Part shown: one piece after another, positions 11,745 through 27,702 of the stretch
How positions within the stretch are numbered: the stretch's first letter is position 1
How the letters are laid out: the number at the start of each line of letters is the position of its first letter
Assembly (NCBI GenBank): GCA_021730945.1
Contig: JAKFYH010000039.1
Location: 1 to 53,584 of the forward strand
Direction: 5' to 3'
DNA from: Acidobacteriota bacterium
Lineage (GTDB): Bacteria; Acidobacteriota; Vicinamibacteria; Vicinamibacterales; UBA2999
Length of the DNA stretch: 53,584 bases
Notes under the pieces: model-generated
Database searches by the model: none
What the model saw: only the letters and a program-made list of their open reading frames with translations
Told to the model about the DNA's origin: nothing
Program-made: the position numbers and the translations under genes

Positions 11745-12206
11745 CTACATTTCGCCATTCCAGTCTTCCGGCTCAGCCGCGGTGGACCGAAAGACTTCCA
11801 GGTGCCACTTGCCCCCGCCCCACGGCTCGATCACTTCCGTCGCCACGACGTCGACCAGCAGCTCGGCAAACGTGCGGCCTTCGGGATCGCCCTCGAGGTG
11901 ATAGGCCGGGTCGTCCCACGCGAAATTGGGATAGATCGTCATGGTCAGGAACAGGTCGTAGCCGTCATCGACGACGATGATCTGGCCGATCGGCCGTTTC
12001 TGGGTGGAGTGATAGACGAGATATTTTTCGGCGCTATGGGCGCGAATGTAGCGCTTGAGCGCAAACTCGCGCGCGACGATTTCTTCCACCGCGATCTTCT
12101 TGTCCCAGCAGTCGCGGCAGTAGCGCTCCTCGCCCCGCGGCTCGGAGACTTCCTTGGCCCCGCATAGCGCGCAGCCCTTCTTGTTCCCAATTGACTTGCG
12201 AGACAT
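11745..12206 (-). CDS. Hypothetical protein with N-terminal zinc-ribbon
   Basis: 153 aa from ATG 12206 (MSRKSIGNKKGCALCGAK). Two CxxC pairs (CALC near residue 12 and CRDC near residue 31) form a probable treble-clef zinc ribbon. The remaining 110 residues have no family I recognise; they contain a conserved-looking core (IGQIIVVDDGYDLFLTMTIY) and several tryptophans near the C-terminus. Cytoplasmic, no membrane segment. TACAAT ends nine bases before the ATG and no SD is present, so the mRNA may be almost leaderless. Divergent from the M28 peptidase with 19 bases between starts. Confidence 0.68.
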   Translation of the reverse strand: MSRKSIGNKKGCALCGAKEVSEPRGEERYCRDCWDKKIAVEEIVAREFALKRYIRAHSAEKYLVYHSTQKRPIGQIIVVDDGYDLFLTMTIYPNFAWDDPAYHLEGDPEGRTFAELLVDVVATEVIEPWGGGKWHLEVFRSTAAEPEDWNGEM

Positions 12207-12215
12207 ATCAGGGGA

Positions 12216-12221
12216 ATTGTA
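12216..12221 (-). promoter_or_regulatory. -10-like TACAAT for the zinc-ribbon gene
   Basis: TACAAT on the minus strand nine bases before ATG 12206, the same spacing as for the M24 peptidase. No -35 recognised. Confidence 0.45.
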
Positions 12222-12225
12222 CCCC

Positions 12226-13929
12226 ATGGGGATAAAGGTGCTCGGATGTCCGCCTACGCGGCCGGAGGCCGCTACGGCGAGACCTCGCCGAAGCTCGCGC
12301 GTTGGTTCGCGAGCGGCGGCGGGCGGAGGTGCTCAAGTGCTGGCGTGCGCACTTATGCTCGGCTTGTCGGTGGCGGTGGCGGGCCAGGCTCCGCCGCACC
12401 TGCCACCTCTCGACCGCGCGCTGCCGCCTGTCGCCGAGGGCATCTACACGGCGCTGGCGCCGCGGGTCGACGCCGAAGTCGCCATGGCGACGGTCCGCGT
12501 GATGGCCCCGCTCTGGCGACTGGCCGGCAACCCGGCGTTCGACCAGTCTCAGCAGTACATGTTCGACCGGCTCGCCGCGGCCGGGATGGCGCCGCGCTTT
12601 GAGACCTTCGCCGACTCGAGCCAGGGATGGGAGCAACAGGTGGGGACGCTGCGGCTGGGCGGCCCGGCCGGCGAGGTGCTGCTGTCGCGCGAGACGCACC
12701 GCGTGGCGCTGGCGATCAATTCGTTTGGCACACCACCCGGCGGCAGCTCGTTCCGGCTGGTCGATGTCGGCGCCGGCACCAACGCCGCCGCGTACGAGGG
12801 GAAAGAAGTGAAAGGCGCCGTGGTGCTGGCGTCGGGCTCCCTTGGCGCGGCCTGGCAACAAGCCGTGCGCACTCGTGGCGCGGCCGGCGTCATCTCGACC
12901 GATCTTGCCGCCTACACCAGGCCCACGCAGACGCCGGACGTGTTGCAGTGGGGCGGCATTCCATTCGACGAGTCGCTCAAGTCATTCGGCTTCAAGGCCA
13001 CGCCGCGGGCCGCCAGCCGGTTGCGCGACGAGCTGGCCAAGGGCACGGTCACCGTGCACGTCGAAACCGCGACTGTGTTTCATCGCCGGCCCAACCGAAC
13101 CCTGGTGGTCGAGATTCCGGGCCGCGCCAAGGCCGCCGAACGGGTGATGCTGGTCGCGCATGTCCAGGAACCCGGCGCCAACGACAACGCCAGCGGTTGC
13201 GGGACGCTGCTGGCCGCGGCCCTTGCCATGCACGACGCTGTCCGGCGGGGCGCCGTCCCCGCGCCCGAGCGCACCATCACATTTCTCTGGGTCGACGAGA
13301 TCCGCGGCAGCCGGCAGTGGATCACGGATCATCCCGGCGCGGCCAGCCAGGTCCTGGCGATGCTGTCGCTCGACATGACCGGCGAGGATACGGTCCAGAC
13401 CGGCGGCACGTTTCTGATTGAGAAAAGTCCTGATCCGTCGGCACTCTGGGAGCGGCCGTCGGACCCGCATTCCGAATGGGGGGCCAGCAAGGTGGATCCG
13501 GCGCTGGTGCGGGGGAGTTTCCTGAACGACCTGCACCTGGCCGTCAGCCTGCGCCGCGCGCGCGATACCGGCTGGGTGGTGCGCACAAATCCCTACGAGG
13601 GCGGCAGCGATCACACCGTGTTCATGACCGCCGGCGTGCCCGCCCTGCTCAACTGGCATTTCACCGACCGCTACTACCACACCAACCTGGACACGGTGGA
13701 GAAGACGAGCCCGGCAGAAATGCAGCATGTCGGCATCGCCGTGGCGACGACGGCGCTGTACCTGGCGATGGCAGGAGCGGCGGAGGTGCCGCCGATGACG
13801 CGGCTGCTGGCCGCTGCGCGCGATGCACGAATGGCCACCGAGCAGCAGAACCGGGCCACGCCGGAGATTCTCGATGCGTGGCGCAAATGGTACGCCGAGG
13901 CGATTGAAAGCGCTAACCGCCTCCGCTGA
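12226..13929 (+). CDS. Secreted M28 family zinc metallopeptidase
   Basis: 567 aa from ATG 12226. The hydrophobic signal core is LACALMLGLSVAVAG, preceded by an Arg-rich stretch. M28 metal-site motifs: LVAHVQEPGANDNASG (His and Asp ligands), WVDEIRGS (catalytic/ligand Glu), LSLDMTGED (Asp) and EGGSDHTVF (His). A PA-type insert precedes the catalytic part (about residues 140-290). It probably cleaves N-terminal residues from peptides outside the cytoplasm. Oddity: bases 12244-12326, at the very 5' end, look like a small inserted element flanked by 8-base direct repeats. The original start may have been GTG 12337 or ATG 12355, which lie after it. The start is therefore uncertain; the rest is not. 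Confidence 0.83.
   Translation: MGIKVLGCPPTRPEAATARPRRSSRVGSRAAAGGGAQVLACALMLGLSVAVAGQAPPHLPPLDRALPPVAEGIYTALAPRVDAEVAMATVRVMAPLWRLAGNPAFDQSQQYMFDRLAAAGMAPRFETFADSSQGWEQQVGTLRLGGPAGEVLLSRETHRVALAINSFGTPPGGSSFRLVDVGAGTNAAAYEGKEVKGAVVLASGSLGAAWQQAVRTRGAAGVISTDLAAYTRPTQTPDVLQWGGIPFDESLKSFGFKATPRAASRLRDELAKGTVTVHVETATVFHRRPNRTLVVEIPGRAKAAERVMLVAHVQEPGANDNASGCGTLLAAALAMHDAVRRGAVPAPERTITFLWVDEIRGSRQWITDHPGAASQVLAMLSLDMTGEDTVQTGGTFLIEKSPDPSALWERPSDPHSEWGASKVDPALVRGSFLNDLHLAVSLRRARDTGWVVRTNPYEGGSDHTVFMTAGVPALLNWHFTDRYYHTNLDTVEKTSPAEMQHVGIAVATTALYLAMAGAAEVPPMTRLLAAARDARMATEQQNRATPEILDAWRKWYAEAIESANRLR
12236..12334. mobile_element. MITE-like element with short terminal inverted repeats and 8-base direct repeats
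   Basis: An 83-base segment begins near TCCGCC (12249-12254) and ends with GGCGGA (12322-12327). It contains three consecutive stem-loops: 12258-12272 (GCGGCC/GGCCGC), 12275-12290 (CGGCGA/TCGCCG) and 12294-12313 (CTCGCG/CGCGAG). It is bounded by direct repeats AGGTGCTC at 12236-12243 and 12327-12334, consistent with target-site duplication. No coding capacity of its own. It forms the 5' codons of the M28 peptidase gene. Confidence 0.6.
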
Positions 13930-17126: not shown

Positions 17127-17172
17127 CTAGGGTGCGTACGGTGCCTAGGGTGCGTACGGTGCCTAGGGTGCC
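17127..17172. repeat. 18-base tandem repeat before the P1 peptidase
   Basis: CTAGGGTGCGTACGGTGC is repeated at 17127-17144 and 17145-17162, with a half copy from 17163. It fills most of the gap between the divergent dehydratase and peptidase genes. Confidence 0.9.
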
Positions 17173-27616: not shown

Positions 27617-27702
27617 GGTGCGGAAGAGAGGACTCGAACCTCCACCCGGTTGCCCGGACTAGCTCCTGAGGCTAGCGCGTCTGCCAATTCCGCCACTCCC
27701 GC
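27616..27702 (-). tRNA. tRNA-Leu (anticodon CAG)
   Basis: 87 bases including an encoded 3' CCA. Acceptor GCGGGAG pairs with CTTCCGC (one G-T). The D-loop has GGCGGAATTGGCAGACGCGC. Anticodon stem GCTAG.. with loop CTCAGGA gives CAG. A long class II variable arm (TCCGGGCAACCGGGT) and T-loop GGTTCGAGTCC are present. The long variable arm and A discriminator confirm leucine. Confidence 0.96.

Follow-up and report, generated by a model that had tools for sequence, protein, structure and literature searches.

Positions 12249-12323 of the window, the 53,584-nucleotide stretch of acidobacterial DNA analyzed here, very likely are a dispersed, non-autonomous palindromic element nested in an 8-bp minisatellite upstream of a gene for an M28-family peptidase (Table 1). 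The 75-bp palindrome would be able to form a DNA (or RNA) cloverleaf, and it would have entered, without evident target-site duplication, a minisatellite that already existed in the intergenic region between two divergent genes. The event may have been a duplication-free recombination or transposition, probably on the folded strand, with the activity supplied in trans. At the peptidase gene, the element would lie in the promoter/5'-UTR region, where it could modulate expression, and most likely it provides no start codon.

Table 1. Features around the element copy and the peptidase gene (positions in the window)
Feature	Position	Strand	Remarks
Cloverleaf repeat element, type A copy	12249..12323	+	75 bp, TCCGCC...GGCGGG
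Stems of this copy			outer stem, hp1 (GCGGCC/GGCCGC), hp2, hp3 (GCTCGC/GCGAGC); hp3 loop hypervariable
hp3 loop region, as sliced for comparison	12299..12308	+	GCGTTGGTTC
Left part of host 8-bp array at the insertion	12237..12248	+	GGTGCTCG GATG, from sequence
Right part of host 8-bp array	12324..12343	+	CGGA GGTGCTCA AGTGCTGG, from sequence
Putative Shine-Dalgarno-like GGAGG	12325..12329	+	7 nt before GTG 12337; from sequence
M28-family peptidase gene (GTG 12337 as most likely start)	12337..13929	+	Pfam PF04389, E 5.1e-20; start of G005 orthologue
Divergent neighbor gene	11745..12206	-	N-terminus MSRKSIGNKKG kept in relatives; synteny mark

A multicopy element with defined ends

A preliminary description of this locus had proposed a MITE-like insertion of 83 bases (12244-12326), with TCCGCC and GGCGGA ends and three stem-loops, bounded by a duplication of the 8-base target AGGTGCTC. 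Both copies of AGGTGCTC are present (12236-12243 and 12327-12334, 91 bases apart), as are inverted repeats between them. The block did turn out to be a repeat unit, but with the narrower limits given in Table 1, which were set by the alignment of 130 full copies and by filled and empty host repeats in a relative (G013). The three stem-loops were retained, a closing stem CCGCC/GGCGG was added to them, resulting in a cloverleaf fold, and the end GGCGGA was corrected to GGCGGG.

The block matched at least 27 places, itself included, in the window's own genome (G000, 4.73 Mb in 67 contigs) when 40 of 69 first-look candidates were scored. Seventeen of the own-genome copies were aligned to build a covariance model with the four-stem structure, R1, which recognized the window copy at 12247-12325 with 85.7 bits. 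With 150 of 10,378 first-look candidates scored and strand duplicates merged, R1 found at least 30 distinct places in the genome at E <= 0.01, of which 20 scored 71 bits or above. These results support the insertion of a short repeat of the mobile type here. The outcome against which the preliminary description had set its proposal, a single-copy block conserved in relatives as ordinary coding DNA, is contradicted both by this copy number and by three relatives (G001, G004 and G013) in which the syntenic intergenic region lacks the element.

The family extends beyond this genome. Among the 40 genomes searched, the own genome counted, 27 contained an R1 match at E <= 0.001. With at most 118 candidates scored per genome and both strands counted, there were 47 strand-hits in the own genome, 39 to 75 in G001, G002, G005, G007 and G013, 31 in G020, 18 in G006 and at most 16 in each of the remaining genomes. 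An exact core pattern, which misses diverged relatives in other organisms, occurred in 27 stretches among 84,980 species genomes, all within six acidobacterial MAGs titled Acidobacteria, Acidobacteriota, Acidobacterium, Vicinamibacterales or Candidatus Sulfopaludibacter; the same exact pattern had no match in viral contigs. Note that CAMBHC01 (L089, L091, L094, L095, L101, L103 and L107), titled Candidatus Sulfopaludibacter, carries the element at the same coordinates as G007; this title looks wrong, since our search placed G007 in the window's genus.

Full copies begin with TCCGCC (type A) or CCCGCC (type B) and end with GGCGGG or GGCGGA; 70 of the 130 are of the T..G kind and 48 of the C..A kind. 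Most measure 75 (59 copies), 76 (30), 78 (21) or 77 bp (10), with a few other lengths. Partial copies comprising the hp2-hp3 half were seen in L024, L025 and L026 (own contigs C2, C6 and C7); those of L026 adjoin, by eye, fragments of serine/threonine kinase N-termini, and similar flanking DNA is found in L024 and L025. G005 and G001 each contain a shorter relative of the element, about 64 bp long, upstream of the peptidase at a distance of about 600 nt (L067:3720-3783 and L068:869-933); the window has no such match.

The direct repeats and the host array

The AGGTGCTC 8-mers do not abut the element: they lie 5 nt (left) and 3 nt (right) off its ends and look like array units. Removal of the element from the window leaves four 8-mers, GGTGCTCG, GATG^CGGA (GATGCGGA), GGTGCTCA and AGTGCTGG, the second of which is a poor unit. 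On this comparison, we read the AGGTGCTC repeats as units of an 8-bp tandem array that appears to host the element. The element sits among four such units, hence the spacing of 91, which equals 75 + 2 x 8; the earlier argument that an insertion of 91 bp would have shifted the reading frame is not supported, the actual insertion being of 75 bp, or 25 codons.

The five peptidase loci compared have the divergent neighbor in common. The element is found in G000 and, at the same place, in G005, where it is followed by AAGGTGCCT units. The three loci without it show short GGTGC- or GTGC-type arrays (G001 and G013) or a short GGTGC-containing stretch (G004).

Exact matches between abutting flanks of k = 4 to 10 nt were found in 1, 0, 0, 2, 1, 2 and 0 of the 130 copies, respectively, and a permutation test for target-site duplication on these copies gave no fixed-length signal. 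The matches at k = 7 and k = 8 (two copies and one) are more than shuffling gives (means 0.11 and 0.04); by eye, the 7-mers correspond to period-7 arrays. A filter on periodicity within the flanks, with a 62% threshold, proved overly stringent (4 of 130 copies) and was replaced by junction tests. A classical MITE flanked by an 8-bp target-site duplication, which the two identical 8-mers close to the element had brought to mind, is therefore almost certainly the wrong description: the 8-mers are set off from the ends that the family defines, abutting duplications are rare among the copies, syntenic relatives have GGTGC-type repeats without the element, and the filled and empty repeats of G013, described below, differ by no duplication.

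The junction tests pointed to a preferred target. When type A and B copies of the genus are read from the TCC end to the GGG end, GGYR^CC falls exactly at the junction in 20 of 89 (38 of 89 with at most one mismatch), and at the other shifts from -12 to +12 it is found exactly 0-2 times, except at -9 (7), +9 (9) and -6 (5). The exact junctions separate by type, with GGTGCC in 11 of 11 for type A and GGCACC in 9 of 9 for type B. The commonest 4-mers upstream of the TCC end include GGTG in type A (14 of 41) and GGCA in type B (11 of 48). A GGTGC-type array spans the junction in 21 of the 89 copies (A, 11 of 41; B, 10 of 48), compared with 27 of 16,134 random 28-mers from the same loci. The excess over shuffled pairings of the flanks is small (A, 11 versus a mean of 9.0 and a maximum of 12; B, 10 versus 5.3 and 10), since the copies have one array type in common. 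Because 68 of the 89 genus copies lie outside a recognizable GGTGC array, this target rule does not hold throughout the family.

Period-9 arrays of triple GGTGC are common in most members of the genus (81 in G000, 150 in G001, 295 in G005 and 129 in G008, but 0 in G004) and in G013 (967), with at most 5 matches to the reversed pattern in those genomes. Arrays alone are insufficient, since G008 has many of them and few elements. The window itself contains, at 17131-17171, a period-9 GGTGCGTAC/GGTGCCTAG array without a cloverleaf element, which holds four of the six GGTGCNNNNGGTGC matches of the window (0.46 expected).

Filled and empty sites

In G013, where the target is a dispersed host repeat other than the GGTGC arrays, this repeat occurs both empty and filled at the identical nucleotide, without duplication. 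The pattern used for this repeat, which misses empty repeats lacking the terminal CC, has 148 occurrences; a hand count of the 100 places listed gave 24 filled and 76 empty ones, and four of the 24 (C40 and C50) are two close inverted pairs too short for a full element. Among these 100 places, the filled ones continue into TCCGCC or TCTGCC, and 71 of the 76 empty ones have AAGGCC. The G013 loci that were examined, mostly chosen for carrying the element, comprised 17 filled, 19 empty and 2 unclassed repeats (18 filled and 19 empty with a slightly wider pattern). The junction is CACG^AAGG in G013 and GGTG^CC or GG^TGCC in the window's genus.

Orthologous genes provide further pairs of sites. The linker of the sucB product (E2) is filled in G000 and empty in all eight other genus members aligned: the G006 orthologue has ctgaggtg followed directly by cctatgggtgac, and G000 has ctgaggtg, 75 bp and then tcaaagggtgat. 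This insertion lies inside an in-frame 9-bp array encoding V-P-x units. As the left part of the array has lost or never had several of the units present in G006, the right side alone aligns surely in G000. In a quinoprotein gene, G000, G005, G006 and the first of two G002 homologues carry the element, and the site is empty in G001, G003, G004, G008, G013 and the second G002 homologue. In XseA, the element is present in G000 and G003 and absent in G001, G002, G004 and G008; the G005 gene may hold a decayed copy, and the G006 contig ends there. The DnaE2 gene carries the element in G000 and G005; a regular expression located the region in 5 of 14 loci, namely in G000, with the element, and in G002, G003, G013 and G025, which lack it and have other linkers. 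For at least two lineages, these comparisons support a fixed point of entry into short host repeats, a filled site being equal to an empty one once the element is subtracted.

Fold and covariation

The outer stem encloses hp1, hp2 and hp3, that is, a four-stem cloverleaf. In an alignment of 108 copies (107 distinct rows) that was fitted to this structure and hence biased towards it, standard pairs occupy 93.3% of the cells, versus 37.5-48.8% when the partners are slid. Among the 107 distinct rows, changes on both sides were seen in 12 of 29 pairs (shuffled mean 4.4, reached in 0 of 500 shuffles) and further pair types numbered 38 (29.3 in shuffles, 0 of 500), while the count of double-change cells was unexceptional, 59 of 500 shuffles reaching it. 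The five CCGCC/GGCGG pairs are formed in 105-107 of the 107 rows and the outermost pair in 63. The 17 own copies taken alone show five pairs with double changes (2.7 in shuffles, 5 of 500), their covariation being otherwise unremarkable (double-change cells, 213 of 500; covariation score, 170 of 500; further pair types, 496 of 500). As a single strand, the window copy folds modestly (z -1.88, 12 of 200 shuffles being equally good); a second own-genome copy folds at z -3.51.

When types A and B are both written with hp1 first, the terminal pair (T..G versus C..A) and the hp2 loop (AC versus GT) are both inverted: the loop is AC in 65 of 70 T..G copies and GT in 38 of 48 C..A copies, as if alternate stems had been flipped.

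A cloverleaf with double changes would also be expected of a structured RNA gene or a riboswitch-like leader that is not mobile. This explanation is very unlikely, as copies lie inside unrelated genes in both orientations, and no Rfam model matched the window element at gathering score (of three weak hits with E values up to 10, none came close to its cut-off). Within the whole window, a single Rfam match attained the gathering score, a tRNA at 27619-27702 on the minus strand.

Conserved stems and a variable loop

In 18 orthologous pairs, which overlap (six derive from four quinoprotein copies), identity amounts to 1098/1170 (93.8%) in the 65-nt core, 133/188 (70.7%) in the hp3 loop region and 4241/5087 (83.4%) in 300 nt of flank. 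The core is more conserved than the flanks in 16 of these pairs, with the proviso that the copies were found by family similarity and the best-scoring ones taken, so that decayed copies are under-represented and conserved ones favored. In the two pairs involving L055, the core (56/65) is not above the flanks. A 14-pair subset reaches 96.3% in the core, the four remaining pairs being less conserved. Core identity within genomes is 79-95%.

Within genomes, type-A loops are barely more similar than shuffled ones (0.29-0.33 versus 0.24-0.27), and the 37 compared across the genus, four of 41 copies being excluded as shorter than 70 bp, all differ from one another; type-B loops are somewhat above shuffled values (0.34-0.50 versus 0.27-0.33). 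The G013 loops keep a consensus (0.58 versus 0.30 when shuffled), with 0.968 for the core (25 copies) and 0.760 for the loop (20 copies). The divergence of the G013 flanks provides no clock for the element, because these flanks are pre-existing host repeats. As between stems that are constrained or homogenized and a loop that is unusually mutable, the orthologue data favor the former, as far as aligned sequences can tell.

Copies in frame within protein genes

A codon model trained on 56 long ORFs, which gives crude frame calls, called both flanks coding in 33 of 127 copies and left the other 94 without coding calls on both sides; of the 33, 21 are in frame, 7 shifted and 5 have their flanks on opposite strands. 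One of the 21 calls, L115, was rejected as false since this copy contains stops. All 21 use one of two frames, reading SAxA... from the TCC end or PPx... from the CCC end, and the length is divisible by three in 20 of them versus 59 of the 106 other copies (57 of 77 within the genus). A length of 75 or 78 bp and suitable open frames, which most copies have, allow many of them to persist in housekeeping genes as in-frame linkers of some 25 codons. Such cassettes are found in sucB, xseA, dnaE2, the quinoprotein gene and others. The hosts supported by Pfam are a 2-oxoacid dehydrogenase E2, the large subunit of exonuclease VII, a PQQ-repeat protein, a DUF4175-type protein and a DnaE-type polymerase, with a beta-lactamase-family protein in a relative; the Pfam match of an ImuB-like host is below its cut-off.

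On own contig C41, adjacent ORFs for the DnaE-type polymerase and the ImuB-like protein each contain a copy (L011:2637-2712 and L011:7010-7087), both in open frames on the minus strand. In G007, two in-frame copies (L101:1735-1813 and L101:2629-2707) lie in a single ORF of 744 codons, by eye between domains.

The start of the peptidase gene

In the preliminary description, ATG 12226 would be a start codon gained by way of the element. The peptidase could indeed start there (or at GTG 12238), the element then encoding an arginine-rich N-terminus: the frame is open through the element, and with a start at GTG 12337 the N-terminus resembles a signal peptide that lacks basic residues ahead of its hydrophobic core. 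This start is nonetheless unlikely. The G005 orthologue, which is 82% identical and carries the element, has an in-frame TAA directly before an ATG at the position of GTG 12337. The GGAGG motif precedes GTG 12337 by 7 nt, none of the 21 in-frame copies uses this frame from the TCC end, and a start at ATG 12226 would leave about 20 bp to the start of the divergent gene for two promoters. The latter gene is listed as an ORF at 11745-12227, from ATG 12227; its start at 12206 is suggested by conservation.

The codon model gave -21.3 for 12226-12336 in the peptidase frame and +3.4, +12.7 and +10.5 for the next three blocks, the element alone accounting for -12.0. An argument for GTG 12337 based on these scores was dropped, because true in-frame copies in other genes range from -13.7 to +6.0, so that the scores do not discriminate and are compatible with ATG 12226 as well. 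From the comparison with the orthologue, GTG 12337 is most likely the peptidase start. The element would then precede the gene, in the promoter or leader region, and not make up its beginning; a scan of 12100-12420 found no promoter and no terminator.

Possible routes of movement

HUH/Y1 transposases act on hairpins in single-stranded DNA and leave no target duplication. Mobilization in trans by such a host enzyme (RAYT/TIRYT or IS200/IS605-like) is possible, if doubtful. It would fit the fixed junctions without evident duplication and the hairpin architecture. GTAG, which tags one class of REPs, stands before hp3 in 42 of the 130 copies; the complement, CTAC, stands after hp1 in 62, and 18 copies have both. 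Y1_Tnp matches occur in 31 of 40 genomes (five in the own genome), and acidobacterial TIRYTs, one with a dispersed TIR family, have been described (PMC3733652). However, inspection of 24 Y1_Tnp loci revealed neither a mobilizing enzyme nor a related autonomous insertion sequence. The element is found at none of the five own Y1 loci; 2 of the 24 have any match at E <= 1, and one of these is below 1e-3 (L294, G027, 1.7e-5). Y1 and element numbers are uncoupled as well, with one Y1 match for 65 strand-hits in G002 and 13 for 6 in G008. Thirteen Y1 (HUH) genes have flanking inverted repeats of their own, in a TIRYT-like arrangement (L029, L030, L033, L278, L280-L283, L285-L288 and L291), and these repeats are, by eye, unrelated to the element. 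In the own genome, tandem units of about 37 bp extend over some 600 bp beside a Y1 transposase match (L031:797-1392).

A route without transposase, i.e. ectopic recombination or template switching with short host repeats as homology arms, is a tentative alternative that we rate equally, the remainder being left to other enzymes beyond Y1. By eye, the short arrays that contain copies are of several unit types, and the separation of exact junctions by type would be accounted for; on the other side, most genus copies are outside recognizable arrays. In G013, moreover, a variable dinucleotide located 5-6 nt away from the junction is no less mixed in 18 filled repeats (GA 5, GT 4, AT 2, AA 2, CA 2, GC 2, CT 1) than in 19 empty ones (GT 8, GA 7, CA 2, AA 1, GC 1), so that conversion tracts would need to end within a few nucleotides.

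Taken jointly, these data would allow a speculative reading, which as a whole has the odds against it. The cloverleaf would not be decaying transposon debris: its stems would be kept after insertion while each locus has a loop of its own, and its insertion would retarget to whatever short repeat abounds in the host, such as GGTGCC arrays in the one genus and CACGAAGG repeats in the other. Nesting in repeats and inserting without duplication, the element would either serve a host function or depend on an unrecognized mobilization system. If so, the element would build linkers of about 25 codons into housekeeping proteins.

Comparison with known elements

None of the curated Rfam covariance models matches the window element at gathering score, and the literature searches made here brought up no paper describing it. 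It is a short, non-autonomous, multicopy sequence with terminal inverted repeats, as are the bacterial MITEs (ERIC, RUP, Correia and others), which are dispersed, have imperfect terminal inverted repeats and in some cases give in-frame fusions (PMC10969869, PMC2229807). It differs from them in having no evident target-site duplication. The two array units that mimicked such a duplication here call for caution when target-site duplications are deduced from a single sequence in which a repeat is nested in another.

GTAG/CGTC REPs with their RAYTs, and TIRYT/TIRtrons, are palindromic dispersed repeats, some of them within other repeats or genes (PMC3733652). The element resembles REPs by the internal GTAG next to hp3, found in a subset of copies only. 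Unlike them, it is larger and four-stemmed, and GTAG and CGTC are not among the eight commonest 4-mers upstream of its TCC end. Unlike in a REPtron, the Y1 genes inspected are not flanked by the element, apart from one match (L294).

A close likeness is with the Rickettsia palindromic elements (RPEs), which are short, palindromic and multicopy, lie in intergenic regions as well as in frame within conserved protein genes, and whose way of moving is described as unresolved (PMC10969869, PMC2229807). In-frame presence inside conserved protein genes was likewise found here. RPEs measure 105-146 or about 150 bp (PMC10969869, PMC2229807), as against 75 bp for this GC-rich four-stem cloverleaf, which in addition differs from them, as far as they are described there, by its Acidobacteriota host, its nesting in short host repeats at a fixed junction and its hypervariable hp3 loop. 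By analogy, the element thus appears to work like an RPE while being, by description, a separate family. Rickettsia is described as the best-known case of palindromic elements colonizing coding genes in frame (PMC10969869). With a second lineage, outside Rickettsia, that offers dozens of copies, a fixed junction and both filled and empty sites within a genome, the movement of such elements and their tolerance by proteins become directly testable.
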